Origin: Anaeromyxobacter diazotrophicus
GTDB lineage: Bacteria > Myxococcota > Myxococcia > Myxococcales > Anaeromyxobacteraceae
NCBI RefSeq assembly: GCF_013340205.1
Contig: NZ_BJTG01000011.1
Span: 62,001 to 126,000 of the forward strand
Direction of reading: 5' to 3'
DNA length: 64,000 bases
Below the pieces are notes generated by a model. That model did not search any database, was not told the DNA's origin, and saw nothing but the letters and a program-made list of their open reading frames with translations. The stretch's first letter is position 1. Each line of letters opens with the position of its first letter. Positions 36,943 through 55,592 of the stretch are shown here, in pieces. A program made the position numbers and the translations under genes.

Positions 36943-36971
36943 TTGACGCCGCGGCCCAGGGCCGGTACCAC
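36943..36971 (+). promoter_or_regulatory. Promoter of the AUR1-like gene
   Basis: TTGACG (36943-36948), a 17-base spacer and TACCAC (36966-36971). The spacer end CCAGGGCCGG and the TACC are identical to the promoter of spt at 48071-48099. Transcription would start near 36978, so the mRNA is almost leaderless with ATG at 36981. Confidence 0.65.
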
Positions 36972-36980
36972 GCCCCGGAC

Positions 36981-37967
36981 ATGGAACCGCAGCCCACCGC
37001 GAACGAAGCCGTCGTCCCGCAGCGCCGCTCGCCGACGCTGGCCCAGCGCGTGCGGGACACGCCGCCGGGCGTTCTTTACGGCGCGCTCGGCGGCATGGGC
37101 GCCTACCTCGTCGCGATGAGGCTCTTCCAGGGCGTGAGCCGCCCCGAGCAGCTCGCGCTGTGCACCGCCATGCTGGGGCTCGTGGTGTGGAGCGACGCCA
37201 CGCGCCGCTTCTTCATCGGCATGCTGCCGTTCCTGCTCTTCGGCATCGTCTACGACCTGACGCACATCACCCAGCCGCTCTTCCGCTACCTCCACATCCA
37301 CATCGCCGAGCCGTACGCGTTCGACCGCGCCCTGTTCGGCATCCGGGAGGGCGGGGCGGTGCTCACCCCGAACGAGTTCTTCGCCCGGCACCACTGGCCG
37401 GTCGTCGATCTCTTCACCGGCACCGCGTACATCGTCTTCGTCTACTGGGCGATCGGCTTCGCCGCGTACCTGGCGATCTTCCGGCGCGACGAGGAGGGCC
37501 GCCGGCTGCTGGCGCGCTTCGGGTGGACGTTCCTGCTCATGAACGTGGTCGGGTTCGCGACCTACTACGTCTACCCGGCCGCGCCGCCCTGGTACGTGGC
37601 GGACCACGGCTTCGGGCCGGCCGACTTCTCGGTGCGCTCCTCGGCGGCGGGGGCGGCGCGCTGGGACGCGCTGACCGGCATCCCCTACTTCGCCGGCTTC
37701 TACGGGCGGAGCGCCGACGTCTTCGGGGCCATCCCCTCGCTCCACGTCTCCTACCCGCTGCTCACCTTCCTGTTCGGGATCGAGCTCCGGCGGCGCTGGC
37801 TCGACCTGGCGAGCTTCGCGCTCTTCGCGCTCGTCTCCTTCGCGGCGGTCTACCTCAGCCACCACTACGTGCTCGACGTGCTCCTGGGCGTCCTCTACAC
37901 GGTGGTGGCGTGGGGGATCGACCGGTGGCTCCAGGCGCGGCGGCGGGCCGGCGCCGCGGGGGCGTGA
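36981..37967 (+). CDS. AUR1/PAP2-superfamily membrane phosphotransferase, likely sphingolipid head-group synthase
   Basis: The 328-residue protein has about seven membrane helices and the PAP2_3/AUR1 motifs: YPAAPPWY (about 205-212), GAIPSLHVSYPL (about 253-264) and SHHYVLDVLLG (about 294-304), carrying the catalytic His and the His-Asp pair. Relatives in fungi and Bacteroides move phosphoinositol from phosphatidylinositol to ceramide. A CDP-alcohol phosphotransferase, a phosphatase and a full ceramide pathway lie nearby, and the promoter matches that of spt. I infer phospho-head-group transfer to ceramide; the head group itself is unknown. A general lipid phosphatase is the alternative. Confidence 0.75.
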   Translation: MEPQPTANEAVVPQRRSPTLAQRVRDTPPGVLYGALGGMGAYLVAMRLFQGVSRPEQLALCTAMLGLVVWSDATRRFFIGMLPFLLFGIVYDLTHITQPLFRYLHIHIAEPYAFDRALFGIREGGAVLTPNEFFARHHWPVVDLFTGTAYIVFVYWAIGFAAYLAIFRRDEEGRRLLARFGWTFLLMNVVGFATYYVYPAAPPWYVADHGFGPADFSVRSSAAGAARWDALTGIPYFAGFYGRSADVFGAIPSLHVSYPLLTFLFGIELRRRWLDLASFALFALVSFAAVYLSHHYVLDVLLGVLYTVVAWGIDRWLQARRRAGAAGA

Positions 37968-37971
37968 GCCC

Positions 37972-38937
37972 TCACTCGCCGGAGAGCTCGACCTCGAGGA
38001 TCCCATCCATCGGCGCGCCCGCGCCCTGCTGGGCGGTGGCGCGGTAGACGTAGGTCACCGGCGAGCCGGTGAAGGGCCGCACCAGGGGGCCGAGCAGCCC
38101 GAGGTCCTCGACCGGCGCGTCGCGGTACAGCAGCCGGCCGGCGCGGAGGGTGAGCGGCGCCTCGCCCCGCACCTCCACGACGAAGCTCGTCGCTTGCCCC
38201 TCGCCGCGCCGCGCCGCGGCGAAGGCCTCCTCGTCCTGGCAGCCCTCCTCGCCGCAGGCCCAGACCGGCGCGAAGCGCCCGTCGTGCCCCTCGCGCCCGA
38301 GCACGAGCAGCGCCCGCGGGCCGCGGAGCGCGCGGAACCGGACCCAGCGGCGGGCGAGGTCCTTCGTCGGGACGGCGCTGCGGGTGTGGTCGAGGTAGAG
38401 GGCCCCGGCGACCTGCCGGGCCGCCGCGCCGGGCCGGGCGAGCGTCGCCGCGAGCGGGGCCCGGAAGAGCAGCACCTCGCTCCGGTACGGGCGGCCGTCC
38501 ACCTGGAGCGCCGCCTCGCCTCCTTGCCGGCGCGGGCGCTCGGGCGTGGCGAGGCGGACCGACCCGCCGTCGAGCTTCACCTCGACGCCGCTCCCGTCCT
38601 CGCTCACCCAGGCGGCGCAGGGGCCCACCGCGAGGCGCTCGTCGCCGCCGTCGCGCCAGGTGATCTCTGACCGGGAGAAGCGCTCCTGGACGCGCCACAG
38701 CCGCCCGTCCGGGGCGACCACCAGCGCGCGGCAGATGCCCTTCGTCGAGCCGGGGCCGAGGTTCGTGAAGGAGAGGCCGGCCTGGACGTAGGTCCCGTCC
38801 TCGAGGTCGGCCACGAAGGTGAACGACTCGCCGTAGGTGCCGCGCTCGAGGAGCAGCGGCCGCAGCGCGGCCGAGGCGAGGGCGACGCCGGGCGCGGCGA
38901 GCGCGAGCGCCGCGGCGAGCGCGGCCGCGCGGCGCAT
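37972..38937 (-). CDS. Secreted beta-rich protein, possibly lipocalin/Svf1-like
   Basis: The 321-residue protein has a signal peptide (about 1-20, ending VALAS) and no further membrane helix, so it is periplasmic. The rest is beta-rich; segments such as GESFTFVADLEDGTYVQAGL and GSTKGICRALVVAPDGRLW recall the two-domain lipocalins of the Svf1/CrtC/AttH group, and yeast Svf1 binds ceramide. This similarity is an impression only. It is the last gene of the tolC-mlaC-phosphotransferase operon and overlaps the HAD stop by one base (TGATG). A lipid carrier or lipid-modifying protein would suit the context. Confidence 0.6.
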   Translation of the reverse strand: MRRAAALAAALALAAPGVALASAALRPLLLERGTYGESFTFVADLEDGTYVQAGLSFTNLGPGSTKGICRALVVAPDGRLWRVQERFSRSEITWRDGGDERLAVGPCAAWVSEDGSGVEVKLDGGSVRLATPERPRRQGGEAALQVDGRPYRSEVLLFRAPLAATLARPGAAARQVAGALYLDHTRSAVPTKDLARRWVRFRALRGPRALLVLGREGHDGRFAPVWACGEEGCQDEEAFAAARRGEGQATSFVVEVRGEAPLTLRAGRLLYRDAPVEDLGLLGPLVRPFTGSPVTYVYRATAQQGAGAPMDGILEVELSGE

Positions 38938-39611
38938 CAGGCGGCCCGGGAGAGCGCCGCCACCCGCGCGATGACGGGGGCGAAGGTCTCGAACTCCTCG
39001 CACGCGATCCCCTGCTCCCCGCACCAGGCGTGGAGCCGGCCGCGGGCGAAGAGCACGTCGGCCACGCCGGCCATGCAGCGGTCGGCGTTGCCGTCGCCGA
39101 CCGAGATCACCGTGTGGCCCTCCGCCTGCAGCTCCTTCACGATGGCGCCCTTGCAGGAGCCGCACTGGCCGCAGGCGCCGGGCGCCTCCGCGTAGGGGAA
39201 GGAGAGGGCGAGCCCGCCCGGCACGTGGCGCGCGCCGTTGGCGCGGATCTCGAGGCCGTCGGTGAGCGCCGCCGGGAGCTTGGTCAGCGCCGGCCGGATG
39301 TAGAGGTCGAGGCCGCCCGAGGCCAGCACGAAGCGGACGCCGCGCTGGCGGCAGGTCGCCAGCAGCTCGGCGAACCCCGGCCGGAAGCGCGCGTGGGCGA
39401 GCGCGAAGGCGCGGACCTCGTCGGGCGTGGCCGCCACCGGCTCGAAGATGCGCCGGAGCAGCTCCACGAACGAGATCTCGCCCGCGTGGAAGGCGTCGTT
39501 GGCGGCCTTCCAGCGGTCGTACCCGAGGTGCTGGATGGACAGGGCGTCGGCGAGGTCCTCCACCGTCGCGGTCCCGTCGAAGTCGCACACCACCGCCACC
39601 GAGGGCTTCAC
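38937..39611 (-). CDS. HAD-family phosphatase, PSP/MtnX-like
   Basis: The 224-residue protein has HAD motif I VCDFDGTAT, motif II ASGG, and motif IV VGDGNADRCM. A Cys cluster CGQCGSCK sits in the cap region. It is of the phosphoserine-phosphatase-like subfamily. Because it lies two genes after a CDP-alcohol phosphotransferase, I infer that it removes the phosphate from the phosphatidyl-polyol-phosphate product, as in known inositol-lipid clusters. The GTG start overlaps the GtrA-like stop. Confidence 0.8.
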   Translation of the reverse strand: MKPSVAVVCDFDGTATVEDLADALSIQHLGYDRWKAANDAFHAGEISFVELLRRIFEPVAATPDEVRAFALAHARFRPGFAELLATCRQRGVRFVLASGGLDLYIRPALTKLPAALTDGLEIRANGARHVPGGLALSFPYAEAPGACGQCGSCKGAIVKELQAEGHTVISVGDGNADRCMAGVADVLFARGRLHAWCGEQGIACEEFETFAPVIARVAALSRAA

Positions 39612-40120
39612 GGCCGGCCCCCCGGCGCCGCGCGCCCGGGTGCCTCGAGCGGCGCCGCGAGGCTCGCCCGGCGCTCGGCGTGGCCGAGGATGGGCCCGCC
39701 GCGGCGGTGCGCGGTGCGGAACACGTAGAGCCGGTGCAGCGGGTAGTTCCAGGCGAAGCCGACCACCAGCGAGGCGGCGATGACGCCGGGGACCGCGGGC
39801 AGGTGGAGCCCGTCGACGAGGGCGTAGGCGAGCGCCAGGTTGAGGCCGAGCGAGGTGGCCGAGACCAGCAGGTAGCGCAGCCCCTCGTGGTGCACGGCGC
39901 CCTTGGCGGCGCGGTCGAACGCCCAGTGGCGCTTCAGCGTGAAGTCCACCAGCGCGCCCAGCACCGCGCCCGCGGAGGCCGCGTACAGGTAGTGGAGCCC
40001 GGCGAGGACCAGCCCGGTGACGAGCACGTACTCGGCGCCGGAGGCGAGGGTGGAGGAGAGGTTGGCGCGCACGAAGCGGCCGATCTCGGCCACGAGCCCG
40101 CGCCGGGCGGGCGCCGTCAT
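39608..40120 (-). CDS. GtrA-like membrane protein
   Basis: The 170-residue protein has four membrane helices in the GtrA arrangement (FVRANLSSTLASGAEYVLVT, DFTLKRHWAFDR, WNYPLHRLYVFRTA). GtrA proteins are thought to flip polyprenyl-linked sugars or similar lipids. The C-terminal 25 residues are an extra Arg/Pro tail. ATG overlaps the stop of the phosphotransferase gene (ATGA). In this operon it may flip the head-group donor lipid. Confidence 0.85.
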   Translation of the reverse strand: MTAPARRGLVAEIGRFVRANLSSTLASGAEYVLVTGLVLAGLHYLYAASAGAVLGALVDFTLKRHWAFDRAAKGAVHHEGLRYLLVSATSLGLNLALAYALVDGLHLPAVPGVIAASLVVGFAWNYPLHRLYVFRTAHRRGGPILGHAERRASLAAPLEAPGRAAPGGRP

Positions 40121-40953
40121 CGCTTCCGGAGCTCCTGGCGCGTGTACTGGGTGCGGATCCAGGCGGTCCAGTTGCCGAGCGCGCCGATCATGCCGAGCGC
40201 GAACAGGACCGGCGTGTGGTACGCGAATTCGCCCGACGGGGTGGGGCGCCACAGCTCCCACAGGGCGGAGCCGAGCGTCGAGACCGCGAGCCACACGGCG
40301 CGCTCGTGCCGCTGCATGAGCCCCATGGACGCGTCGATGCCGAACGACTCGCCCTTGGCGCGCGCGTAGCTCACCATCACCGCGCCGGCGCAGGCGGCGC
40401 AGGCGAGGAGGAAGGCCCACCCCTGGCTCCGGTAGTACCAGGCGTAGCCGAAGAACACGGCCATCTCGGCCCAGCGGTCCATCGCCGCGTCGAGCACCTC
40501 GCCCGCGTCGGAGGCGATGCCGCGCGCGCGCGCCACCGCGCCGTCGAGCGCGTCGCAGAAGGCGCCCAGGATGAGCACCCACGCGCCGAGCCCGAAGAAG
40601 CCGCCGGCGATGAGCACCGCCGCGCCCATCTGCAGGACGAGGGAGGTCCAGGAGAAGAAGTCGGGGTGGACGCCGAGGTGGATGGCGGTCCGGGTGAGCG
40701 GCCCGAACACCCACAGGCCGTACTCCATGACGTACTTGCCGAGCAGGATGCTGCCGCCCGCCTTCTCGACGCGCGCCGTGTGGGGCCGCCCCTGGATCGC
40801 GCTCTTGAGCGCGAAGGCGACGAAGGCGGCCAGGAAGCAGGCCGTCAGGACGAGCGGCCCCCAGCGCAGGGTGGGGGTCTCCAGGTAATCGAGGTAATGG
40901 TCGAGCACCGAGAGGGCTTCTACCGTTCCCGAGCGGGGTACATCAAGGGCCAC
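40117..40953 (-). CDS. CDP-alcohol phosphatidyltransferase family enzyme
   Basis: The 278-residue membrane enzyme has the complete CDP-alcohol motif D-x2-D-G-x2-A-R-x8-G-x3-D-x3-D (DALDGAVAR followed by GEVLDAAMD), with all metal ligands. It joins CDP-diacylglycerol to an alcohol or alcohol phosphate. Next to a phosphatase and an AUR1-like transferase, an inositol-phosphate or related polyol-phosphate acceptor is the best guess. No inositol-phosphate synthase gene is in the window. It starts with GTG at 40953, 14 bases after mlaC. Confidence 0.85.
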   Translation of the reverse strand: MALDVPRSGTVEALSVLDHYLDYLETPTLRWGPLVLTACFLAAFVAFALKSAIQGRPHTARVEKAGGSILLGKYVMEYGLWVFGPLTRTAIHLGVHPDFFSWTSLVLQMGAAVLIAGGFFGLGAWVLILGAFCDALDGAVARARGIASDAGEVLDAAMDRWAEMAVFFGYAWYYRSQGWAFLLACAACAGAVMVSYARAKGESFGIDASMGLMQRHERAVWLAVSTLGSALWELWRPTPSGEFAYHTPVLFALGMIGALGNWTAWIRTQYTRQELRKR

Positions 40954-40967
40954 CCGTCACCCCATGG

Positions 40968-41579
40968 TCACCGCGCCGTCGCGCCGGCCTTCGGCGCGGG
41001 TTCGCCGCCGCCCTTCTCCAGGCGCCGGATGAGGCCGTCGACGCCCTCCTTGCCGATGATGCGCGAGAAGGAGGAGCGGTAGTTCTCGACGGTGGACACG
41101 CCGTCCACCGTAATGTCGACGATCCGCCAGCCGGGCGCCTCCCGCTTCAGGGTGTAGGTGATGTCGGTGGGCTCACCCTTCACCACCACCTTGGTGGGGA
41201 CCTGGACCGTCCCCTCGGGCTGCGGCGCCTCGGGCCGGTAGTCGATCTGCGTCGAGCGGTAGGCGTCGAGCTCCCCGCCGCTGGCCTTGCGGAAGCGCGA
41301 CTCGAACGCGCCGATGAGCCGCCGCCGCTGCTTCTCGGGGGTCTCCGCCCAGCGCTTGCCCATGGCGGCCTGCACCATCCCCCGCAGGTCCACCGCCCGC
41401 GTCACGATGGACTCCAGGCGGCGGCGCACCTCGGGGGTCACCTGGCCGCCGGCGGGCGGCAGCGCGGCGCGGATCTCGGCGTCGCGGGCGCGGAGCGCCT
41501 CGGTGGCGGTGCCCTCGGCGGCGAGCGCTCGGCCCCCCAGCAGCAGCGCCGTCAGCGTGAGGGTCAGGGCAGCTCGCAT
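40968..41579 (-). CDS. MlaC/Ttg2D-family periplasmic lipid-binding protein
   Basis: The 203-residue protein has a signal peptide (about 1-21) and the MlaC-type domain: IVTRAVDLRGMVQAAMGKRW, QRRRLIGAFESRF, and GWRIVDITVDGVSTVENYRSSF as the core strand. MlaC carries phospholipid between inner and outer membranes. No mlaA, mlaD, mlaE or mlaF is nearby, so it probably works with the adjacent TolC-like or MMPL proteins. Its start overlaps the tolC-like gene by 16 bases. Confidence 0.85.
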   Translation of the reverse strand: MRAALTLTLTALLLGGRALAAEGTATEALRARDAEIRAALPPAGGQVTPEVRRRLESIVTRAVDLRGMVQAAMGKRWAETPEKQRRRLIGAFESRFRKASGGELDAYRSTQIDYRPEAPQPEGTVQVPTKVVVKGEPTDITYTLKREAPGWRIVDITVDGVSTVENYRSSFSRIIGKEGVDGLIRRLEKGGGEPAPKAGATAR

Positions 41580-42916
41580 TGCACGCCTTTCCTGGGGGCT
41601 TCGCCCGTTACCTGCGCGAGCTTCGCTCGCGCGACGTAGAGGTCATACGCAGCCTGCGCCGCCGCGACCTGGCTCTCGACGTACTGCGTGTAGGCGTCGA
41701 TGAGGCTCTTCGCGTCGATGAGCCCCGCGGCGAAATCGAGCCCGGTCGAGCGGAACAGCGCCTTGCCCGAGCCAAGCGCCGCCTGGGCGGCAACGTGCCG
41801 GGCCTGCGCCGCCCTGAGCTCGGCGAGCCCGGTGTCCACCTGCACCTGTACCAGGCGGGCGAGGCCCTCGCGTTGCTGAGCCAGGGCGTCCCGCTCCGCC
41901 TGCGCCTTCTGCGCGCGGGCGGACATCATGGGCAGCGCCAGGTCCTGGCGGAAGCCGATCAGGGCGCCCAGCGAGAGGGTGTTGAACCAGTCGCTCACCC
42001 AGGGGTTGAGCTGGATGTCGCGGTTGGGCGCGTAGGAGTAGACGAACTGCGCGCCGAGGAAGAACTGCGGCTTGTTGGCGGCGCGCTCGGCCTTCACCTC
42101 CGCGTCGCGCGCCCGGATGGCGTCGCCCAGCGCGCGCAGGTCGGGCCGTTGCCGCTCGGCCGCGTCCAGCGCGGCGGCGCGGTCCGGCACGGCCGCGGCG
42201 GGCGGGTCGAGCGGCGCTTCCTGCAGCGCGAGACGCGCGGGATCGGTCCCGAGCATGGCGGCGAGGGCGACCTGCGCCAGGTCGAGGCCCTTCTGCGCCT
42301 CGGCGGCGCGCCCCTCCACGACGCCGCGGGCGAGATCCACGCGGTAGCGGTCGGCGGGCGAGACGTCCTCGTCGCCGTTCGCCATCGCCTCCTTCACGTG
42401 CTGCGCGGCCTGCGCCAGGGCACCGCGGACGTCGCCGGCGATGGCGAGGAACCGCTTCGCCAGCGCGACCCCCCACCACGTCTGCACCACCCGGAGCTGC
42501 ACCTGCGAGGTCGTGTCCTGTACCAGCAGCTCGCGCGCCTCGAGGCCGGCCTGCGCCGCCTCAGACGCAGCGTCGAGGCGACCCCAGGTGTAGATCGGTT
42601 GCAGTGCCTGGATCTCGACGCGGACGAAAGGCCGGATCCCATAGAGCGACCGGTTGGTGCCGACGATCGTCTCCGGTTTGAGGAAGTCGCCACGCGCCTC
42701 GGGGGCGGGGCCGGTGAGGACGGTCGCGGTGGCCTGCGGGACGATCCTGAGCGCCCTGGCCATCGCCTCGTCCGCCTGGGCGGTGACGACGTCCGCCTGC
42801 TTGATGGCGACCTCGTCGCTGCGTGAGGCTGCGAGGCCGAGCGCGGTGTCGAGGTCGAGCGGCCCGCACGGTGGGCCGGCCGCGAAGAGGAGCGTGGCGA
42901 CGATGTAGGTGGTCAT
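41564..42916 (-). CDS. TolC-family outer-membrane channel protein
   Basis: The 450-residue protein has a short N-terminal signal, and two outer-membrane-efflux repeats with long helices (RPDLRALGDAIRARDAEVKA and a C-terminal YDLYVARAKLAQVTGE). TolC proteins form a trimeric barrel and periplasmic tunnel. It is the first gene of a lipid operon and has its own promoter overlapping the divergent one. It may serve lipid export rather than drug efflux; no adaptor protein gene is adjacent. Confidence 0.87.
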   Translation of the reverse strand: MTTYIVATLLFAAGPPCGPLDLDTALGLAASRSDEVAIKQADVVTAQADEAMARALRIVPQATATVLTGPAPEARGDFLKPETIVGTNRSLYGIRPFVRVEIQALQPIYTWGRLDAASEAAQAGLEARELLVQDTTSQVQLRVVQTWWGVALAKRFLAIAGDVRGALAQAAQHVKEAMANGDEDVSPADRYRVDLARGVVEGRAAEAQKGLDLAQVALAAMLGTDPARLALQEAPLDPPAAAVPDRAAALDAAERQRPDLRALGDAIRARDAEVKAERAANKPQFFLGAQFVYSYAPNRDIQLNPWVSDWFNTLSLGALIGFRQDLALPMMSARAQKAQAERDALAQQREGLARLVQVQVDTGLAELRAAQARHVAAQAALGSGKALFRSTGLDFAAGLIDAKSLIDAYTQYVESQVAAAQAAYDLYVARAKLAQVTGEAPRKGVQCELP

Positions 42917-42939
42917 CAGGGAGAGCCGGTGGCGGCGGC

Positions 42940-42968
42940 AAGCTACTTGGCAATGTCAGGCTTTTCAA
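42940..42968 (-). promoter_or_regulatory. Promoter of the tolC-mlaC-lipid operon
   Basis: Minus strand TTGAAA (42968-42963), 17-base spacer, TAGCTT (42945-42940). The -10 hexamer lies beside the -35 of the opposing promoter, so RNA polymerase cannot occupy both. Confidence 0.55.
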
Positions 42969-42975: not shown

Positions 42976-43004
42976 GCGGCCCGCGGGGGGCTCCCAAAAA
43001 ACAC

Positions 43005-44351
43005 ATGAAGAAAAAGAACGTCGTCCTCCGGACCGCCATCCCCGGCCCGCGCTCGCAGCAGATCGTCGCTCAGGAGCAGCGCCACCTCGCGCCCGGCCTG
43101 CAAGGCTTCGCGCTCTGGGCCGGCGTCGCCATGGACCACGGGCGGGGCTCCACGCTGACCGACGTCGACGGCAACACCTACGTCGACCTCATCGGCGGGA
43201 TCGGCGTCAACGCGCTCGGCCACTGCCACCCGGCCTACGTGGCGGCGCTCACCGAGCAGGCGCAGCAGCTCACCGTCGGCAGCTTCACCTCGGCGCCGCG
43301 GGCGGACCTGGTGAACGACGTCTGCGGGATGGCCCCGGCCGGCCTCGACCGGCTGCAGCTCTACTCGTCGGGCGCGGAGGCGGTCGAGTCCGCGCTCCGG
43401 CTCGCCCGCCACGCCACCGGCCGGCAGGAGGTGGTCGGCTTCTGGGGCGGCTTCCACGGCAAGACCGCCGGCGCGGCCGCGCTCATGGGGTCGACCTCCA
43501 AGTACGGCCTGGGGCCGTTCCCGGCCGGCACCACCCTCGTCCCGTACGCCGACTGCTACCGCTGCCCGCTGGCCCTCGAGGAGGCGAGCTGCGGCCTGGC
43601 GTGCATCGAGCTGGCCCGCAAGGCGATGAAGGCGCAGCCGTCCGGCCCGGTGGCGGCGGTCATCGCCGAGCCGATGCAGGGCACGGCCGGCAACGTCATC
43701 CCGCCCAAGGAGTTCCTCCCGGCCATGGCCGACGCGGCCCACGAGCTGGGCGCGCTGTTCATCGCCGACGAGATGATCACCGGCTTCGGCCGGACCGGGA
43801 AGCCGTGGGGCGTGGATCACTCCGGCGCCCGCCCGGACATCGTGACGCTCGGCAAGGGGTTCGGCTCCGGCTTCCCCATCGCCGGCGTGCTCACCCGCGA
43901 CGCCATCTCGCAGGCGAAGCCCTGGGCGAACCCCTCGGGCGCCTCCTCCAGCTACGGCGGCAACGCGCTGGCCGCGGCGGCGGCGCGCGCGTCGGTGCGC
44001 ACCATCCGTGACCAGAAGCTGTGGGAGAACGCCGAGAAGGTCGGCGCGGCCATGCTCGCGGAGCTGCGCCGGATGCAGGAGCGGCACCCCTTCATCGGCC
44101 AGGTCCGCGGAGCGGGCCTGTTCCTCGCCATCGAGATGGTGAAGGACCGCAAGACCAAGGAGCCGGTCGACACGGCGGTCATGAAGGACGTCTACCAGCG
44201 GTGCGTGCGGCGGGGGCTCCTCGCCATGACCTACAGCCCCCACATCCGCCTCCAGCCGGCGCTCACGATCGACGAGGACACGGCGCTCGAGGGATTGTCC
44301 CTGCTCGACGAGGCGTTCCGGGAGCTGGACGAGAGCGGCCGCTGGCGGTGA
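43005..44351 (+). CDS. Class III PLP-dependent aminotransferase
   Basis: The 448-residue protein has the class III core: DVDGNTYVDLIGGIGVNALGH, SSGAEAVESALRLAR, FHGKTAGAAALMG, IADEMITGFGRTGKPWG and LGKGFGSGFPIAGV with the PLP Lys. It moves an amino group between an amine and a keto or aldehyde compound; family members use 4-aminobutyrate, diaminobutyrate, ornithine or glutamate semialdehyde. The substrate cannot be read from the sequence. It heads an operon with a Gfo/Idh/MocA dehydrogenase and an MMPL transporter. ATG 43005 was chosen because the preceding frame lies in the promoter. Confidence 0.88.
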   Translation: MKKKNVVLRTAIPGPRSQQIVAQEQRHLAPGLQGFALWAGVAMDHGRGSTLTDVDGNTYVDLIGGIGVNALGHCHPAYVAALTEQAQQLTVGSFTSAPRADLVNDVCGMAPAGLDRLQLYSSGAEAVESALRLARHATGRQEVVGFWGGFHGKTAGAAALMGSTSKYGLGPFPAGTTLVPYADCYRCPLALEEASCGLACIELARKAMKAQPSGPVAAVIAEPMQGTAGNVIPPKEFLPAMADAAHELGALFIADEMITGFGRTGKPWGVDHSGARPDIVTLGKGFGSGFPIAGVLTRDAISQAKPWANPSGASSSYGGNALAAAAARASVRTIRDQKLWENAEKVGAAMLAELRRMQERHPFIGQVRGAGLFLAIEMVKDRKTKEPVDTAVMKDVYQRCVRRGLLAMTYSPHIRLQPALTIDEDTALEGLSLLDEAFRELDESGRWR

Positions 44352-45513: not shown

Positions 45514-48074
45514 ACGATCGCGATCTCCCCGGGGCCGGCGGCGCGGTGCGCGCCGGGCCGGGGGCGCCCGGGCCGCGGCGGGAGCCCGGGCAGCCGGGCC
45601 CGTGCTGCCGCGCGCTCGTCCCGTGGCTCGTGCGCGAGCGGCGGGTGGTGCTGCTCCTCGCGCTGCTCGCCTTCGTCCTCGGGTCGATCTACGCGGTCCG
45701 CCTCTACTCGAACCTGCGGTCCGGGTTCGAGGAGCTGCTCCCCGACAACGCGGCCAGCGTCAAGGTGGCGCGCACCGTGGCGAAGAAGCTCCACAACGTC
45801 ACCCACCTCTCGGTCGTGTTCGAGGGGAAGGACGGCGACGCCCTGGAGCGGCTGGCCGACGACCTGGCCCGGCGCCTCCGCACGCTGCCCGGCGACATCG
45901 TGGACCGGGTCGAGTACCGCACCGACGAGCAGGAGGCCTTCTTCCGCCGCTTCGGCGGCCTGTACCTGTCGAACGAGGACCTGGCCGAGATCCAGCGCCG
46001 GCTCGACGCTCGCGTCGCGTGGGAGAAGCAGAAGCAGAACCCGTTCCTCGGCCTGCTCGGCGAGGACACGCGCGAGCTCGGCCCCGAGCCGTCGCTCGAC
46101 TTCTCCGACATCGAGCGGAAGTACGGCGCGGTGACCGGGGCGCTGGCGCAGTTCCGGAACGGCTACTTCCAGACCCCCGACGGCAAGCTCCTCGTGATGC
46201 TGGTGCGGCCGCCCGAGTCGGCCACCGGCCTCGCCGCGAACCAGCGCGTGCTCGACGCGGTGAAGCGCGAGGTGGAGGCGCTCCAGCCGACCCGGTACGA
46301 CCCCGCGGTGCGCGTCGGCTACGACGGCGAGGTGGGCACGCTGGTCGAGGAGCAGGCGGCGCTCGAGGCCGACCTCGTCTCCTCGACGGTGGTGGTGCTG
46401 GTCCTGGTGCTGGCCGTCCTCTACGTGTACTTCCGGCGCTGGACGGCCATCCTCTCGATCCTGGGCGCGCTGGCGGTCGGCTGCGCGCTCACGTTCGGGC
46501 TCTCCTGGGTCCTGGTCGGCTACCTCAACGCCAACACCGCCTTCCTCGGCTCGATCGTGGTCGGGAACGGCATCAACGTCTCGATCATCTTCGTGGCGCG
46601 CTTCCTGGAGGAGCGGCGGCGCGGCCTCCCGCTGGTGGAGGCGATGCAGGTGACCTGGGCCGGGACGCTGGCCGCCACCTTCGTCGCCTCGTTCGGCGCC
46701 GGGCTCGCGTACCTGTCGCTCGCCGTGACCGACTTCCGCGGGTTCAGCCAGTTCGGGGTCATCGGCGGCCTCGGCATGGCGATCTGCTGGGCCGTGGCCT
46801 ACCTGACGCTGCCGGCGCTCCTGGCGGCGCTCGACTCGCGCAGCAAGCGGGCCGTCGACCCGGGGCAGCGCTCGATCGTCGGCGTGCTGGTGAACCGGAT
46901 CGACACCCGGCACGGCCGGCTGGTGCGGGTGGTCTCCCTGGCGCTGGCGGCGGTCGCGCTGGCGGGCGTCGCGACCTACCGCGGCGAGATCATCGAGTAC
47001 GACCTCGACCAGCTCCGGGCCGCCAAGAGCGCGCGCGAGGGGGCGCAGTACTGGGGCGGCAAGGTGGACCAGGTCTTCAAGGCCTACCTCACGCCCATCA
47101 TGATCCGCGCCGACAGCCCGGAGGAGCTGAAGAAGGTGGTGGCGGAGCTCGACCGCGAGCGCGCCCGGCGCGGCCCGGCCGACCCCATCCGCGAGGTGCG
47201 CACCCTCGAGACGGTGGTGCCGCCGGACCAGGAGCAGAAGCTCCCGCGGCTGCGGCGCCTCCGCGAGTCGCTCAGCGACGCGCGCCTCGCCCAGCTCGAC
47301 CCGGAGGTGCGGCGCAAGGCGCTCCTCTTCCGCCCGCCGCCCGACCCGCGGCCGGTCACGATCGACGACCTGCCGCTCACGTTCCGGCTGCCGCTCGTGG
47401 AGCGCGACGGGACCACCGGCCACATCGGCCTCGCCTTCCCGAAGCGCGTCGGCTGGATGAGCGCCCGCGAGACGCAGGACATCGTGGACCTCATCCGCGG
47501 CGCGATCGCGCGCGCCGGCGGCCACGCCCAGGCGGTCGGGCAGCCGCTGCTCTTCGCCGACATCGCGCGGGCCATCGTGCGCGACGGGCCCAAGGCCACC
47601 GCGCTCGCCTTCGCGGCGGTGGTGCTGCTGGTGTTCGCCGCCATGCGGCGCCTGCGGCCCGCGCTGCTGGTGCTGGGGAGCCTGGTGCTCGGCGTGGTCT
47701 GGCTGGTGGGGCTCGCCGCCTGGGCCCGGGTGAAGCTCAACTTCCTCAACTTCGTGGTGTTCCCCATCACCTTCGGGATCGGCGTGGACTACGCCGTCAA
47801 CATCGTCCAGCGCTGGCGCCTCGAAGGGCCCGACTCGCTCCACCGCGTGCTGCGGGAGACAGGTGGCGCGGTCGGGCTGTGCTCGCTCACCACCATCATC
47901 GGCTACGCCTCCCTCCTCGTCGCCGACAACCGCGCGCTGCGCGGCTTCGGCCTGCTCGCCTCGGTCGGCGAGCTCGCCTGCGTCACCGCCGCGCTGCTGG
48001 CGCTGCCGGCGTGGCTCCTCCGTCCGCGGGAGGCGGGCGGCACACCTACACCCACCGACCGGCCCCGCACTTGA
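45510..48074 (+). CDS. MMPL/RND-family lipid transporter, HpnN-like
   Basis: The 854-residue protein has the two-halved RND plan: one helix near residue 45, a large periplasmic domain, five or six helices (about 290-450), and the same again in the second half. Motifs such as SRWTAILSILGALAVGCAL context, GNGINVSIIFVARFLEERRRG and ITFGIGVDYAVNIVQRW match hopanoid/lipid exporters (HpnN, MmpL). GTG at 45510 overlaps the dehydrogenase stop. It probably moves a membrane lipid, here presumably a sphingolipid, toward the outer membrane. Confidence 0.88.
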   Translation: MNDRDLPGAGGAVRAGPGAPGPRREPGQPGPCCRALVPWLVRERRVVLLLALLAFVLGSIYAVRLYSNLRSGFEELLPDNAASVKVARTVAKKLHNVTHLSVVFEGKDGDALERLADDLARRLRTLPGDIVDRVEYRTDEQEAFFRRFGGLYLSNEDLAEIQRRLDARVAWEKQKQNPFLGLLGEDTRELGPEPSLDFSDIERKYGAVTGALAQFRNGYFQTPDGKLLVMLVRPPESATGLAANQRVLDAVKREVEALQPTRYDPAVRVGYDGEVGTLVEEQAALEADLVSSTVVVLVLVLAVLYVYFRRWTAILSILGALAVGCALTFGLSWVLVGYLNANTAFLGSIVVGNGINVSIIFVARFLEERRRGLPLVEAMQVTWAGTLAATFVASFGAGLAYLSLAVTDFRGFSQFGVIGGLGMAICWAVAYLTLPALLAALDSRSKRAVDPGQRSIVGVLVNRIDTRHGRLVRVVSLALAAVALAGVATYRGEIIEYDLDQLRAAKSAREGAQYWGGKVDQVFKAYLTPIMIRADSPEELKKVVAELDRERARRGPADPIREVRTLETVVPPDQEQKLPRLRRLRESLSDARLAQLDPEVRRKALLFRPPPDPRPVTIDDLPLTFRLPLVERDGTTGHIGLAFPKRVGWMSARETQDIVDLIRGAIARAGGHAQAVGQPLLFADIARAIVRDGPKATALAFAAVVLLVFAAMRRLRPALLVLGSLVLGVVWLVGLAAWARVKLNFLNFVVFPITFGIGVDYAVNIVQRWRLEGPDSLHRVLRETGGAVGLCSLTTIIGYASLLVADNRALRGFGLLASVGELACVTAALLALPAWLLRPREAGGTPTPTDRPRT

Positions 48075-48099
48075 CGCGCCCCGCCAGGGCCGGTACCTA
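48071..48099 (+). promoter_or_regulatory. Promoter of the spt operon
   Basis: TTGACG (48071-48076), a 17-base spacer, TACCTA (48094-48099); start expected near 48106, ATG at 48140. From CCAGGGCCGG through TACC it is identical to the promoter of the AUR1-like gene 11 kb away. Confidence 0.7.
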
Positions 48100-48139
48100 G
48101 CTCGTTCGACAGCCGCAGGCGCGGAGAACAGAAGAGAAG

Positions 48140-49696
48140 ATGGCCGACCTTTTCGAGAAGTGCGCGCAGTGGAAGCAGGTCCAGCTCATCAAGCTGGCCG
48201 GGCACTATCCGTACTTCCGCGTCATCGAGCAGCACGACGGCACGGAGGTGGTCATCGGCGGCAAGCGCCTGATCATGGCCTGCTCCAACAACTACCTGGG
48301 GTTGGCGCAGGACCCGCGCGTGCGCGAGGCGGCGGCGCAGGCGGCCCGCGACTGGGGCTCGTCCACCTGCGGCTCGCGGCTCGCCAACGGCACCCTGGCG
48401 CTGCACGACGAGCTCGACCAGAAGCTGGCGGCCTTCCTCGGCAAGGAGGCGGCCGCCACCTTCTCGACCGGCTTCACCACCAACCTCGGGACCATCTCGG
48501 CGCTGGTGGAGCGGCACGACCTCGTCTACGCCGACCGCCAGGTGCACGGCTCCATCGTCGAGGGCATCCACGCCTGCTACGGCGAGGCGAAGCGCTTCCG
48601 CCACAACAACATGGAGGACCTCGAGCGGCACCTCGTCGCCGCGCCGCGCGAGGCGGGCAAGCTCATCGTGGTGGACGGGGTCTACTCGGCCGAGGGCGAC
48701 CTGGCCGACCTGCCCCGCATCGTGGAGCTCAAGAAGAAGCACGGCGCCCGCCTGATGGTGGACGAGGCGCACGGCCTCGGCGTCATGGGCCGGAACGGCC
48801 GCGGCACCGGCGAGCACTTCGGGGTCCACGAAGACGTCGACCTCATCATGAGCACCTTCTCGAAGTCGCTCGCCTCCATCGGCGGCGTCATCGCGGGGCG
48901 CGCCGACGTCATCAACTGGGTGAAGCACAAGGCCCGGTCCATGATCTTCCAGGCCTCGATGGTGCCCTCCGCCGCGGCGGGCGCGCTCAAGGCGCTCGAG
49001 ATCATCCAGCAGGAGCCGGAGCGGCGCGAGCGGCTGTGGGACATCTCGGAGCGCGTCCACCGCGAGCTCCGCCTCATGGGCTTCGACACCCGCCCCTCGG
49101 TCACGCCGGTGGTGCCCATCGCGGTCGGCGATCAGGCCCTCAACTTCATCTTCTGGCGCAAGCTCACCGACGCCGGCCTGTTCGTCTCCCCCTTCACCAA
49201 GCCGGCCGTCGAGCGCGACTGCGTCCGCGCCGTCTTCATGGCGACGCACACCGACGAGCAGGTCGAGCGCGCGCTCGAGATCTTCCAGCGCTGCGGCCGG
49301 GAGGTGGGCATCATCCCGTACGAGCGCCCGCACACCCGCGTCGAGGTGAAGATGGCGCGCCCGGGCGCGGACGGCTTCACCTCCTCCTCGGAGGACGCGG
49401 TCGCGACCGCCGCCCGCGCCGAGCAGGCGGAGCCGCTCGAGCTGGGCGCCATCCTGCGCAACCACGCCGACTCGCTGCGCCAGCGGCTGGACGACGCCGC
49501 CGAGCTCCTCACCTGGCGCGCCCTCAACACCGACGGCGACGACGTCCGCCGGCTGGCGCAGCTGCCGGAGCGCATCTGGACGCAGCGGCACCGCATCCAG
49601 AACAAGCTGCTCTCGATGGGCATGAACTGGATGAGCCGCCGCGGGCCGCGCCGGGGCGCCGAAGCGTCCGACGCGACCGAAGCCGACGGCCGCTGA
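48140..49696 (+). CDS. spt: Serine palmitoyltransferase-type alpha-oxoamine synthase
   Basis: The enzyme condenses L-serine with a fatty-acyl thioester to 3-ketosphinganine, the first step of sphingolipid synthesis. The core (about 1-397) has the AONS signatures YPYFRVIE, CSNNYLGLAQDP, VHGSIVEGIHACYG, MVDEAHGLGVMGRNGRG (D208, H211) and STFSKSLASIGG with the PLP Lys K242. Other AONS enzymes (KBL, BioF, HemA) are possible on sequence alone; the adjacent ceramide synthase and reductase candidates decide for Spt. A C-terminal extension (about 398-518), rich in helices and ending in MSRRGPRRG, is unusual. Confidence 0.88.
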   Translation: MADLFEKCAQWKQVQLIKLAGHYPYFRVIEQHDGTEVVIGGKRLIMACSNNYLGLAQDPRVREAAAQAARDWGSSTCGSRLANGTLALHDELDQKLAAFLGKEAAATFSTGFTTNLGTISALVERHDLVYADRQVHGSIVEGIHACYGEAKRFRHNNMEDLERHLVAAPREAGKLIVVDGVYSAEGDLADLPRIVELKKKHGARLMVDEAHGLGVMGRNGRGTGEHFGVHEDVDLIMSTFSKSLASIGGVIAGRADVINWVKHKARSMIFQASMVPSAAAGALKALEIIQQEPERRERLWDISERVHRELRLMGFDTRPSVTPVVPIAVGDQALNFIFWRKLTDAGLFVSPFTKPAVERDCVRAVFMATHTDEQVERALEIFQRCGREVGIIPYERPHTRVEVKMARPGADGFTSSSEDAVATAARAEQAEPLELGAILRNHADSLRQRLDDAAELLTWRALNTDGDDVRRLAQLPERIWTQRHRIQNKLLSMGMNWMSRRGPRRGAEASDATEADGR

Positions 49697-49720
49697 GCTC
49701 AGGAAGAGAGAAGAGAGACC

Positions 49721-50905
49721 ATGACCACCGCCGTGAAGCCCTCCCTCGCCGCCACGCCCGGCGCCAGCGCCAGCGGGAGCGTCGAGGTGACCCGCGTCGT
49801 CGACGCGCTGGAGCGGGACCGCTTCATCAAGTTCCCCTGGAAGATCTACCAGGACGACCTGCACTGGGTGCCGCCGCTCCTCATGGAGCGGCACGAGTTC
49901 CTCGACCCGCGCGGGAACCCGTTCTTCCAGCACGCCGACGTGGCGCTGTTCCTGGCCCGCCGCGGCGGGGAGGTGGTGGGCCGCATCGCCGCCGTCGAGG
50001 ACCGCAACTTCAACGCCTTCCACAAGAGCAAGACCGCCTACTTCGGCCTGTTCGAGTGCGTGAACGACCAGGGCGTGGCCGCCGCGCTCGTCGGGGCCGC
50101 CAAGGACTGGGCGCGCTGGCGCGGGCTCGACGGGATCCTCGGGCCGATGAACCTCTCGACCAACTACGAGATCGGCCTGCTGGTGGAGGGGTTCGACTCC
50201 GACCCCTACATCCAGATGACCTACAACCCCCGCTACTACGGGGAGCTGCTCGAGGGGTGCGGGCTCAAGAAGGCGAAGGACCTCTACGCCTGGGAGCGCA
50301 CCGCGAAGACGCCGCCGCCGGAGCGCTTCGCCCGCATCGCCGACAAGATCCGCCAGCACGAGAACATCGTCGTCCGCAGCGTCAACATGCGCGACTTCGA
50401 CGCGGAGCTGGAGCGCTTCAAGGAGATCTACAACTCCGCCTGGGACAAGAACTGGGGCTTCGTCCCCATGACGGACGGCGAGATCGACAAGATCGCGAAG
50501 GACCTCAAGCACCTCATCGTGCCGGACCTCTGCATCTTCGCGGAGTGCGACGGCGAGCCCATCGCGGCCGCGCTGACCGTCCCGGACTGGAACCAGGCGC
50601 TCAAGAAGCTCGACGGGCGGCTGACGCGGTTCGGCCTGCCCATCGGCCTCGCCAAGCTGCTGTGGCACTCGCGGAACATCGACCGCGTGCGCCTCATGGC
50701 GCTGGGCGTGAAGGCGGGCTGGCGGCGCCGCGGGCTCGACGCGGTGCTGGTGGTGGAGACCATCCGGCGCACCCAGCAGCTCGGGTACGAGGGCGGCGAG
50801 ATCTCCTGGACGCTCGAGGACAACGACCTCGTCAACCGCGCCATCGAGGCGTGCGGCTGCACCCGCACCAAGCTCTACCGCATGTACGAGGCGCCCACCG
50901 GGTAG
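49721..50905 (+). CDS. GNAT-fold N-acyltransferase, candidate bacterial ceramide synthase
   Basis: The 394-residue protein has a GNAT-type fold spread over two halves: an N-terminal part with FIKFPWKIYQDDLHWVPPLL, EVVGRIAAVED and ILGPMNLSTNYEIGLLVEGF, and a C-terminal part with VRLMALGVKAGWRRRGLDAVLV holding the acyl-CoA/acyl-ACP binding turn. Its place directly between spt and a reductase is that of bCerS in Caulobacter, which N-acylates the sphingoid intermediate. I assign this role by gene order and fold. The start has AGAGA ribosome-site sequence; it is 24 bases after spt. Confidence 0.75.
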   Translation: MTTAVKPSLAATPGASASGSVEVTRVVDALERDRFIKFPWKIYQDDLHWVPPLLMERHEFLDPRGNPFFQHADVALFLARRGGEVVGRIAAVEDRNFNAFHKSKTAYFGLFECVNDQGVAAALVGAAKDWARWRGLDGILGPMNLSTNYEIGLLVEGFDSDPYIQMTYNPRYYGELLEGCGLKKAKDLYAWERTAKTPPPERFARIADKIRQHENIVVRSVNMRDFDAELERFKEIYNSAWDKNWGFVPMTDGEIDKIAKDLKHLIVPDLCIFAECDGEPIAAALTVPDWNQALKKLDGRLTRFGLPIGLAKLLWHSRNIDRVRLMALGVKAGWRRRGLDAVLVVETIRRTQQLGYEGGEISWTLEDNDLVNRAIEACGCTRTKLYRMYEAPTG

Positions 50906-50906
50906 C

Positions 50907-51902
50907 GTGCGGGTCCTCGTCACCGGCGCGACGGGCTTCATCGGCGGCGCGCTGACCGCGCTCCTCGCCGCCCGCGGCGACCGGGTGCGGGCGCTGGTGC
51001 GCCCGAGCTCCCGGACCGAGGCGCTCTCCGCCCTGGGCGCCGAGCTGGCGCAGGGCGACGTGGGCGACCCGGCCTCGCTGCTGGCGGCGGTGGAGGGCTG
51101 CGACGCGGTGATCCACCTGGCGGGGGCCGTGAAGGCGCTCCGCGACCGCGAGCTCTTCCAGGCGAACGGCGAGGGCACCCGGCACGTGGTCGCCGCGTGC
51201 GCCGCGTCCGCGGCCCGCCCGCGCCTCGTCTACGTCTCCTCGCTGGCCGCGGCGGGCCCGGCGACCGCCGGCCGCGCGCGCGTCGAGGACGACCCGCCGG
51301 CGCCGGTGAGCCGCTACGGCGAGAGCAAGCTCCTGGGAGAGCGCGCCGTCCGGCTGGCGGCCGGGAAGGTGGCCGCGAGCATCGTGCGCCCGCCGGTGGT
51401 CTACGGCCCGGGCGACAAGGAGCTCATGCCCCAGCTCCTGCGGATGGCGCGCCTGGGCCTGGTGGTGCGCGCGGGCTTCCAGCAGAAGACCTTCAGCGTC
51501 GTGCACGTGGCCGACCTGGGCCAGGGCATCCTGGACGTCCTCGACCGCGGGCGCCCGGTGGGCGAGGCGGGCGGGGAGGGCACCTACTTCTTCGAGGACG
51601 GCGCCGACCGCTCCTGGGACGAGATCGCGCTCGCCGCCTGCGACGCGCTGGGCCGGCGCGCCCGCGTGCTGGCCTTGCCGGAGGCGGTGAGCGCCGCCGC
51701 CGCGGCGGCCTCCTCCGCCCTGGCGGCCGTGACGCGCCGCGCCTCCATCCTCTCCCTCGACAAGCTCCGCGAGATGCGCCAGTCCGCCTGGACCTGCAGC
51801 GCGGCCCGCGCCCGCGCCGAGCTGGGCTGGTCCCCCCGCTTCCCGCTCCCCGAGGGGATGGCGGACGCGGTGCGCTGGTTCCAGGCGCGCGGCCTAGCCT
51901 AG
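50907..51902 (+). CDS. NAD(P)-binding epimerase/reductase, candidate ceramide reductase
   Basis: The 331-residue extended short-chain dehydrogenase has RVLVTGATGFIGGALTALLA (Rossmann), VIHLAGAVKALRD, SSLAAAGPAT, the catalytic SRYGESKLLGE (Y-x3-K) and IVRPPVVYGPGDKELMP. In Caulobacter the corresponding gene (cerR) reduces the 3-keto group of the ceramide precursor. It begins with GTG one base after the acyltransferase stop, so it is co-translated with it. Its substrate here is inferred from position. Confidence 0.75.
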   Translation: MRVLVTGATGFIGGALTALLAARGDRVRALVRPSSRTEALSALGAELAQGDVGDPASLLAAVEGCDAVIHLAGAVKALRDRELFQANGEGTRHVVAACAASAARPRLVYVSSLAAAGPATAGRARVEDDPPAPVSRYGESKLLGERAVRLAAGKVAASIVRPPVVYGPGDKELMPQLLRMARLGLVVRAGFQQKTFSVVHVADLGQGILDVLDRGRPVGEAGGEGTYFFEDGADRSWDEIALAACDALGRRARVLALPEAVSAAAAAASSALAAVTRRASILSLDKLREMRQSAWTCSAARARAELGWSPRFPLPEGMADAVRWFQARGLA

Positions 51903-51904
51903 CC

Positions 51905-51983
51905 GCGGTCGCGGCTCGCGCTCGCGGCTCGCGGCTCGAGGTCGAGGTCGAGGTCGAGGTCGAGGTCGCGGTCGAGGTTCGCG
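51905..51983 (+). repeat. Untranslated hexanucleotide repeat tract after cerR-like gene
   Basis: About 13 units of GTCG[A/C]G, mostly GTCGAG, plus degenerate GGCTCGC units, begin immediately after the stop codon of the reductase gene. Relative to the neighbouring genes the orientation is opposite to that of the coding tracts. Confidence 0.85.
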
Positions 51984-52118
51984 ATCCCCTGTGCTCCGCG
52001 AGTCCTGCCCCCGCCGCCCCGCGCCCGCGCGCGCGTCGGCGCCCGTGCTCCGCGCCGCCCCAAGGGTGCCCTTGGCCGGAACGCGCACGTGGTCCGCGAG
52101 ACGCGGCTGCGGAATCTT

Positions 52119-52146
52119 GCACCGCGGCGCGGGCGCGCCGCGGTGC
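52119..52146 (+). terminator. Perfect 13-bp hairpin, likely terminator of the spt operon
   Basis: GCACCGCGGCGCG (52119-52131) and CGCGCCGCGGTGC (52134-52146) are perfect complements separated by two bases. It stands about 215 bases past the last gene of the operon. The following sequence CTTCGGTC has only isolated Ts. Confidence 0.5.
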
Positions 52147-52354
52147 TTCGGTCAGTCCTCGCCGCGGGCGAGGTCCTGGTGGGCGCGTTCCGGCGAACTT
52201 GGCACCGGGGGCGGCGCTCCGCAATGGCGCCTCGTGCGCGCGCGGGCGCGGTGCGGCAGCGGCCGGGGGCTGCGTGCCTAGGGCGACGTGCCCCAGGGTT
52301 CACCGTCCGAGCGCGCGCGGCATGTGCTTCACCCGGACCGCGAGCGCCCCTCTC

Positions 52355-52422
52355 GCCGTCGCCGTCGCGGTCGCGGTCGCGGCTCGAGGTCGAGATCGAG
52401 GTCGAGGTCGAGGTCGAGGTCG
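52355..52422 (+). repeat. Untranslated hexanucleotide repeat tract before the desaturase
   Basis: About 11 units of GTCG[C/A]G lie 50 bases upstream of the desaturase start, so they would be in its promoter or 5' leader. Together with the tract at 51905-51983 they frame the intergenic region. Confidence 0.85.
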
Positions 52423-52472
52423 TCCCCCTCTCCCTTGCGCCCCCCTCGCCCCGCCGCTAGTTCCCCCTCGTG

Positions 52473-53516
52473 ATGCCCGCGCCCGCCTCCGCGCCCGCGC
52501 CGCCCTCGGAAGGCGCCGCGTTCGTCCGTCAGGCGTACGCCCTCGTCGCCGACCTCGCGGCTCCGCGCCCCGGCGTCTACTACGCCGACCTCCTGCTGAG
52601 CTCCCTCGTGGGTTGGGCCGCGCTGGTGCTCGGCGCCCGCGCCTGGCCGGCGGCGGGCGCCTGGGTGCTCCTCGCCGTCTCGGCGCTCGCCCTCTACCGC
52701 GCCGGGAGCTTCATCCACGAGCTCACCCACCTGCGCCGGGGCGCCGTGGCGGGGCTCTCGCCCGTCTGGAACGCGCTCGTCGGCGTCCCGCTCCTGCTGC
52801 CCTCCTTCCTCTACGTCGGGGTGCACGGGGTGCACCACGCCAAGCCGCACTACGGCACGGTGCGCGACCCCGAGTACCTGCGGCTGACGGGCTGGCCGCG
52901 CTGGAAGATCCTCCTGTGGGTGGCGCAGGGGGCGCTGCTGCCGGTGGCGCTGGGGCTGCGCTTCCTGCTGCTGGCGCCGCTGTCGCTCGTCCACCCGCGG
53001 CTGCGCAGGCTGGTCTGGGAGAAGGCCTCCTCGCTCAGCGTCAACCCGGCCTTCAGCCGCGCGCCGCCGCCGGCCTCGCTGCGCGCCGGCTTCGCGGCGC
53101 AGGAGGCGCTCTGCGCGGGCTGGGCGTGGGCGGTGGTGCTGCTCGCCGCGCTTGGCGCGCTGCCGGCGCGCTATCCGCTGGCGGCGGCGGTGGTGGCGGG
53201 GGCGGTGGGGCTCCTGAACCAGCTCCGGACCGCGGTGGCGCACCGCTTCGCGAACGACGGGCGCACGCTCGACATGGAGGCGCAGTTCCTCGACTCGGTC
53301 AACGTGCCGGGGAGCCCGCTCGCCACCGCGCTGTGGGCGCCGGTCGGGCTGCGCTACCACGCGCTGCACCACCTCTTGCCGGGGCTGCCCTACCACGCGC
53401 TGGGCGCGGCGCACCGGCGCCTCGCGGCGGGGCTCCCGCCGGCGTCGCCGTACCTTCGGGCGTGCGAGCCCAGCCTGGCGGCGGCGTACCGCCGCCTGGG
53501 CCGCCCGGTCGGCTAG
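52473..53516 (+). CDS. Membrane fatty-acid desaturase / hydroxylase
   Basis: The 347-residue protein has about four to six membrane helices and the three histidine boxes of di-iron desaturases: HELTH (H-x3-H), HGVHH (H-x2-HH) and HALHH (H-x2-HH). It introduces a double bond or hydroxyl group in a lipid acyl or sphingoid chain using O2. Directly after the sphingolipid operon, a sphingoid or N-acyl chain substrate is plausible. GTG 52470 and ATG 52473 are alternative starts. The stop overlaps that of the HDOD gene (CTAG, both strands). Confidence 0.88.
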   Translation: MPAPASAPAPPSEGAAFVRQAYALVADLAAPRPGVYYADLLLSSLVGWAALVLGARAWPAAGAWVLLAVSALALYRAGSFIHELTHLRRGAVAGLSPVWNALVGVPLLLPSFLYVGVHGVHHAKPHYGTVRDPEYLRLTGWPRWKILLWVAQGALLPVALGLRFLLLAPLSLVHPRLRRLVWEKASSLSVNPAFSRAPPPASLRAGFAAQEALCAGWAWAVVLLAALGALPARYPLAAAVVAGAVGLLNQLRTAVAHRFANDGRTLDMEAQFLDSVNVPGSPLATALWAPVGLRYHALHHLLPGLPYHALGAAHRRLAAGLPPASPYLRACEPSLAAAYRRLGRPVG

Positions 53517-55581: not shown

Positions 55582-55592
55582 GGAAGCTCCTC

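Follow-up and report, generated by a model that had tools for sequence, protein, structure and literature searches.

A probable locus for inositol-phosphoceramide synthesis and export in Anaeromyxobacter diazotrophicus

Among the described systems closest to the locus reported here are those of Bacteroides thetaiotaomicron (BT_1522-BT_1526; PMC9246714) and Caulobacter crescentus (CC_1168-CC_1152; PMC11324152), and Myxococcus xanthus has been reported to contain ceramide phosphoinositol (cited in PMC9246714). Here we describe a locus of Anaeromyxobacter diazotrophicus that probably synthesizes and exports an inositol-phosphoceramide. It lies in the window, by which we mean the whole stretch of 64,000 nucleotides that was analysed (contig C11:62001-126000 of genome G000, an assembly of 4.83 Mb in 17 contigs with 75% GC), and coordinates given without a prefix are positions in it. 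Like the B. thetaiotaomicron cluster, the window holds an AUR1-type synthase, a phosphatidylinositol-phosphate (PIP) synthase and a GtrA protein, the counterpart of BT_1524, and the genome also has a gene for myo-inositol phosphate synthase (MIPS), which in relatives is a direct neighbour. In contrast, a HAD-IB enzyme stands in for PgpA, MIPS lies outside the locus, and the window adds a ceramide core, an aminotransferase with a dehydrogenase, and a transport set. With C. crescentus it shares Spt, a GNAT ceramide synthase, CerR and linked head-group and transport genes, whereas the ceramide kinase, the glycerate head group, the second set of Lpt-type genes, the acyl carrier protein (ACP) and the acyl-CoA synthetase set the C. 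crescentus system apart.

The ceramide core starts with an AONS-family protein (48140-49696), which reaches 478 bits against SerpalmtaseCFB, the NCBIfam model of the Bacteroidota serine palmitoyltransferase; this is below the cut-off of 640 bits, and the next model reaches 368. Its nearest solved structures in the PDB are Spt (8guh/3a2b, 2e-110), and in a tree it joins the Spt rows, at a distance from KBL and BioF of the same genome, whose rows are long branches. Thus, profile, structure and tree all bear out the Spt assignment made by the sequence-only reading of this DNA, and identity as KBL or BioF is ruled out by the tree together with the separate KBL (624 bits) and BioF (455 bits) of this genome, both above their cut-offs. 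This Spt has a C-terminal extension of ~115 residues, present too in genomes G003, G007 and G008, which may serve for membrane attachment.

The next gene encodes a GNAT protein (49721-50905; PF00583) whose AlphaFold2 model (pLDDT 80) has a predicted tandem-GNAT fold and matches tandem GNATs in Foldseek at 1.7e-12. It sits between Spt and CerR, in an order that recurs in relatives, and on both its modelled fold and its position we assign it as a predicted tandem-GNAT bacterial ceramide synthase (bCerS). The protein is 36% identical to a GNAT of Sphingomonas parapaucimobilis which, on plasmid unnamed5 (L167:2282-7149), stands side by side with lptF, lptG and a desaturase gene. Since the Caulobacter ceramide synthase CC_1154 adjoins the LptF2/LptG2 genes (PMC11324152), this Sphingomonas GNAT looks like its counterpart. 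The following extended short-chain dehydrogenase/reductase (SDR; 50907-51902; PF01370, 118 bits) comes after Spt-GNAT in relatives as well, and its fold family identifies it as a putative CerR-type reductase; against the HpnA model it scores 164 bits, with a cut-off of 368. The last gene encodes a fatty acid desaturase/hydroxylase (52470-53516; PF00487, 82 bits) that is 47% identical over 332 amino acids to the desaturase beside the Sphingomonas GNAT. In Caulobacter, an enzyme of the DesA family reportedly hydroxylates the acyl chain of the sphingolipid (PMC11324152), so a role as acyl-chain hydroxylase is plausible for this candidate. Taken together, it is very likely that the locus makes ceramide. 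On a plasmid of Streptomyces sp. NBC_01001 (L168:4766-9292), an aminotransferase I/II-GNAT-epimerase triad resembling the ceramide core precedes a gene for a condensation-domain protein. In G007, MIPS and Spt are separated by a fatty acid hydroxylase gene (L053:1410-2027), and Rufibacter likewise has one near the AUR1-type gene (L070:9259-9879).

The head-group genes point to inositol. The PAP2_3 protein (36981-37967; PF14378, 68 bits) matches the NCBIfam phosphoinositol dihydroceramide synthase (PhinosDhcerSyn) at 5e-63 and 213 bits, under the cut-off of 480, and is therefore kin to that family and not a proven equivalog. Its sole PDB matches are AUR1 (5e-13), with no plain lipid phosphatase among them, and the residues of the catalytic His/His/Asp motif (H255, H294/H295 and D299) are, like S253, kept in 96 of 96 homologues; the AUR1-like assignment of the sequence-only reading is upheld. 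The same is true of the CDP-alcohol phosphotransferase (40117-40953; PF01066), for which an intact motif had been claimed: every position of the PIP synthase motif DX2DGX2AR...GX3DX3D is present in 40/40 homologues. The best NCBIfam models for this enzyme are archaetidylinositol-P synthase (1e-30), PIPSynth (1e-28) and PIPSynBT1523 (6e-26), and we refer to it as phosphatidylinositol-phosphate synthase (PIPS) type. GtrA (39608-40120; PF04138, 66 bits) is fused to PIPS in relatives of families f4 and f7 (Myxococcaceae and f7). Two MIPS copies, both above cut-off, are encoded elsewhere in the genome, and G007, G024 and Myxococcaceae have a MIPS-like gene next to the AUR1-type one (Pfam-confirmed for G007). 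Because of the AUR1-type match, the scores and motif of PIPS, GtrA, the MIPS genes and the MIPS-AUR1 adjacency, inositol is the best-supported head group, and there is a high probability that the product is inositol-phosphoceramide, with a head group resembling that of lipids in yeast and gut Bacteroides. A second AUR1-type gene, 42% identical to the first and followed by an MMPL gene, is present in the genome (L034:1672-4805, on G000:C7); a relative of this copy occurs in Anaeromyxobacter oryzae, where the neighbouring gene on the other side is common to both.

Several points weigh against this interpretation. Most NCBIfam equivalog scores of the locus proteins fall under the curated cut-offs, and the ceramide genes stand apart from the head-group genes in Myxococcaceae and f7. 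In the place of the Bacteroides PgpA is a HAD-IB enzyme (38937-39611; PF12710; MtnX-like subfamily TIGR01489, 88 bits), a candidate PIP-lipid phosphatase which adjoins PIPS in G000, G001 and G007; no PgpA-type PIP phosphatase, the usual enzyme, was found in the locus, and the HAD enzyme occurs only in some relatives. Unlike in Caulobacter, there is no ACP or acyl-CoA synthetase gene among the genes called in the locus. Finally, our literature search found no reports of Anaeromyxobacter sphingolipids or amino-inositol sphingolipids, nor lipid data for this organism. With these points counted, we still consider it probable that this is a locus for both the synthesis and the export of inositol-phosphoceramide. 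Moreover, the gene order is repeated in relatives, as the sequence-only reading had proposed to check, and therefore the arrangement is not due to chance.

The same reading had regarded the combination of a Caulobacter-type ceramide core with Bacteroides-type head-group genes as a new arrangement, and in this it does not stand. We searched named genomes with an AUR1-type alignment and obtained 80 loci, of which 35 belong to Bacteroidota/Chlorobiota by record title and 45 do not; among the former we count L129, labelled Williamsia, as its gene order and the place of its Spt fit Bacteroidota. Spt, GNAT and CerR occur together with the AUR1-type gene in 15 of these 35 loci, and in 12 of them Spt, GNAT, CerR, MIPS, PIPS and the AUR1-like gene all lie within ~20 kb. 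The novelty of the combination is thus ruled out by at least 12 Bacteroidota/Chlorobiota loci joining a GNAT-type ceramide core to inositol head-group genes. Loci of this kind in Rufibacter/Sabulibacter and in Bacteroidales/Chlorobiota (L070, L080, L093, L097, L122 and others) share Spt, GNAT, CerR, MIPS, PIPS and the AUR1-type gene with the window, and mostly GtrA. They differ in that no homologue of the aminotransferase, the Gfo/Idh dehydrogenase, MMPL, MlaC or the lipocalin-fold protein was found in them; L070, for example, holds PgpA, FA_hydroxylase and DUF5686 proteins instead of the extra genes of the window. The kind of pathway is already known, whereas the aminotransferase-dehydrogenase pair is undescribed and the transport system is plausible.

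This pair consists of a class III pyridoxal phosphate (PLP) aminotransferase (43005-44351; PF00202, 320 bits) and a Gfo/Idh/MocA dehydrogenase (44401-45513; PF01408 and PF22725). Orthologues of the former (49-81% identity) are found in 18 of 79 related genomes and of the latter (56-84%) in 19; the same 18 genomes carry both, and all 18 have the AUR1-type gene. The hypergeometric probabilities of these co-occurrences are 7e-17 and 6e-6, values that ignore shared ancestry. At the phylum level, both genes occur in the same 6 of 117 genomes. Anaeromyxobacter oryzae Red232 (L074) has both of them, as well as an AUR1-type gene, PIPS and GtrA. In the named loci outside Bacteroidota, the aminotransferase lies within ~10 kb in 28 of 45, and the dehydrogenase is present in 17, every one of which holds the aminotransferase too. 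The dehydrogenase adjoins MIPS in loci of Bdellovibrionota (Bdellovibrionales, Oligoflexia; L068, L076, L090, L114 and L124), an adjacency that we looked for in f7 and did not find. The active sites of both enzymes are intact, as the PLP lysine K284 and D255 of the aminotransferase are conserved in 40/40 orthologues, and the EKP motif and D191/H195 of the dehydrogenase in 29/29 and 30/30 aligned sequences, respectively. The simplest reading is that the dehydrogenase and then the aminotransferase would oxidise and aminate the inositol ring, giving a predicted amino-inositol head group, and we put this forward tentatively. Class III PLP enzymes also perform racemase and lyase chemistry, and therefore the family does not fix the amination step, which counts against this reading.

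It is also a serious possibility that the lipid is a plain inositol-phosphoceramide, with the two enzymes supplying another amino-sugar, amino acid or polyol, or recycling inositol. In nearly all Myxococcaceae the AUR1-type, PIPS-GtrA and lipocalin genes are retained while both enzymes are missing, the solved structures nearest to the aminotransferase are those of racemases and GABA-type transaminases, and the ceramide phosphoinositol reported for M. xanthus (PMC9246714) fits such a product. Against it, in Myxococcota and Bdellovibrionota the two enzymes share genomes and are encoded next to PIPS, MIPS and the AUR1-type gene, and neither was found in any of the 35 Bacteroidota/Chlorobiota loci (0/35).

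The secreted protein encoded at 37972-38937, with a hydrophobic N-terminus, has no sequence match in Pfam or the PDB. Its AlphaFold2 model (pLDDT 85) has a predicted two-lipocalin fold, with AttH (2ich) as the best Foldseek match at 3.8e-11 and 14% identity in the fold alignment. To our knowledge, AttH is of unknown function. The gene is single-copy in nearly every Myxococcaceae genome, and near the AUR1-type gene in those compared. In family f7, one polypeptide consists of PIPS, GtrA and a C-terminal lipocalin-fold domain (L049:14320-16617; also L046, L048 and L051), which links the secreted protein with the synthesis of inositol lipids. The domains of these fused orthologues match Svf1_C (PF17187) weakly in three of three cases, the best at 1.6e-4 and under the cut-off; the window protein itself has none of the Svf1 Pfam domains, and PF17187 has no match in its own genome. 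In yeast, the two-lipocalin protein Svf1 binds ceramide and helps to bring it to the site of complex-sphingolipid synthesis (PMC10583516). Shared with yeast is a predicted two-lipocalin fold of the Svf1/AttH class, encoded here beside an AUR1-type synthase; the window protein differs in being bacterial and secreted, and in that the Svf1_C match is confined to its orthologues and below cut-off. On the modelled fold, we give even chances to a role as lipid carrier.

That the lipocalin-fold protein is instead an enzyme acting on the lipid (a lyase, hydratase or cyclase) is a possibility of its own, which concerns this one part only and which we hold to be somewhat improbable. Most of its solved structural neighbours are indeed enzymes (pericyclases, kievitone hydratase and 25-phosphosteroid lyase). 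However, the nearest single match is AttH, and the fused orthologues match Svf1_C, under cut-off, the domain of a protein that binds ceramide (PMC10583516); catalysis would be compatible with both.

Other head groups appear most unlikely. Bacteriovorax makes sphingophosphonolipids, and a phosphonate head group of that type, or a glycerol derivative such as the Caulobacter ceramide phosphoglycerate, could be suggested by the role of class III PLP enzymes in aminophosphonate metabolism; the PbfA model gives 261 bits, with a cut-off of 525. Nevertheless, phosphoenolpyruvate mutase has no match in the genome, which speaks against a phosphonate, and among the genes of the locus we recognised none resembling a ceramide kinase, while the CDP-alcohol and AUR1-type enzymes match best to inositol-phosphate synthases and inositol phosphoceramide synthases, respectively.

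We next consider how an inositol-phosphoceramide would leave the inner membrane. According to one group, no flippase or transporter has been identified for bacterial sphingolipids (PMC11087976), and Lpt-like genes have been proposed for their transport in Caulobacter (PMC11324152). The locus encodes an MMPL/HpnN-like inner-membrane lipid transporter (45510-48074; PF03176, 121 bits), an MlaC/HpnM-like periplasmic lipid carrier (40968-41579; PF05494, 126 bits) and a TolC-like outer membrane protein (OEP; 41564-42916; PF02321, 104 bits). MMPL homologues stand alongside the AUR1-type gene in 22 of the 45 named non-Bacteroidota loci, and the HpnN-like protein is thus a recurrent transport partner of this gene, whereas among the loci examined only those of Anaeromyxobacteraceae and f2 have MlaC and TolC. 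An MMPL-based export route is moderately probable. In architecture, MMPL and MlaC resemble HpnN and HpnM, and a hopanoid locus with incidental Spt-like genes, for which speak the squalene-hopene cyclase in the genome and the fact that MlaC, MMPL and SDR score highest in NCBIfam with HpnM, HpnN and HpnA, respectively, is extremely improbable and in effect ruled out, because all three proteins score far under the family cut-offs (MMPL 260 of 752 bits and MlaC 88.6 of 160), MMPL goes with the AUR1-type gene and not with a cyclase in relatives, and the hopanoid genes form a separate cluster. This cyclase cluster (G000:C6:344559-352229) has its own HpnA-like and HpnH-like genes, with an MMPL gene ~14 kb off.

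While the enzyme families, the synteny and the phylogenetic co-occurrence come from the present analysis, the individual reactions are drawn from characterised relatives, and the pathway would run as follows. Spt would carry out the condensation of serine and a fatty acyl thioester, the tandem GNAT would attach the second acyl chain, the CerR-type SDR would reduce the keto group, and the desaturase-type enzyme would probably hydroxylate or desaturate a chain. The genome's own MIPS would supply inositol phosphate, which the PIPS-type enzyme would join to CDP-diacylglycerol; the HAD enzyme would probably strip the extra phosphate, and the AUR1-type enzyme would transfer phosphoinositol onto ceramide. 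Oxidation of the inositol ring by the dehydrogenase, followed by its amination by the class III aminotransferase, would most likely yield an amino-inositol head group, and MMPL, the lipocalin-fold protein, MlaC and TolC may move the ceramide or the finished lipid outward.

A gene call based on codon usage gave a clean series of genes with intact frames and a third-position GC of 0.93-1.0 for most of them. The AUR1-like, aminotransferase, dehydrogenase, MMPL, Spt-type, GNAT, extended SDR and FA_desaturase genes are on the forward strand, and those for the secreted Pfam-less protein, HAD, GtrA, the CDP-alcohol phosphotransferase, MlaC and OEP/TolC on the reverse strand. Family profile searches and the gene call recovered every protein listed by the sequence-only reading, which had missed the aminotransferase, the dehydrogenase and the secreted protein. 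Its view of a locus for phospho-sphingolipid synthesis and export is supported, and it withstood the two sequence-based refutations it had named, a grouping of the AONS with KBL or BioF and one of the AUR1-like protein with plain lipid phosphatases; beside the claim of novelty, its shortcoming was to overlook inositol specifically as the head group. A flagellar operon, flhA to fliL (28-36.7 kb), lies on one side and chemotaxis genes (54-64 kb) on the other, with the edges at 36122-36981 (flagellar) and 53513-56408 (chemotaxis), and the flagellar neighbour is kept in the sister genome G001.

The full proposal, in which Myxococcota and Bdellovibrionota make a hitherto unknown amino-inositol phosphate sphingolipid by way of a dedicated dehydrogenase and class III aminotransferase and export it through MMPL, with a periplasmic Svf1-like two-lipocalin ceramide carrier in Myxococcota, is unlikely when taken as a whole. 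Its parts bear on different questions. On the passage of bacterial sphingolipids through the periplasm, the locus and its relatives offer another, recurring set of candidate proteins (MMPL, the lipocalin-fold protein, MlaC and TolC), open to testing by simple deletions. A two-lipocalin protein beside an AUR1-type synthase may mean that bacteria have something related to the Svf1-AUR1 route of yeast; if the reading as an Svf1-like carrier is true, the AUR1-Svf1 pairing of yeast would have a bacterial counterpart. Finally, the co-occurrence of the aminotransferase and the dehydrogenase suggests that myxobacteria and predatory Bdellovibrio relatives have a head group not yet described.

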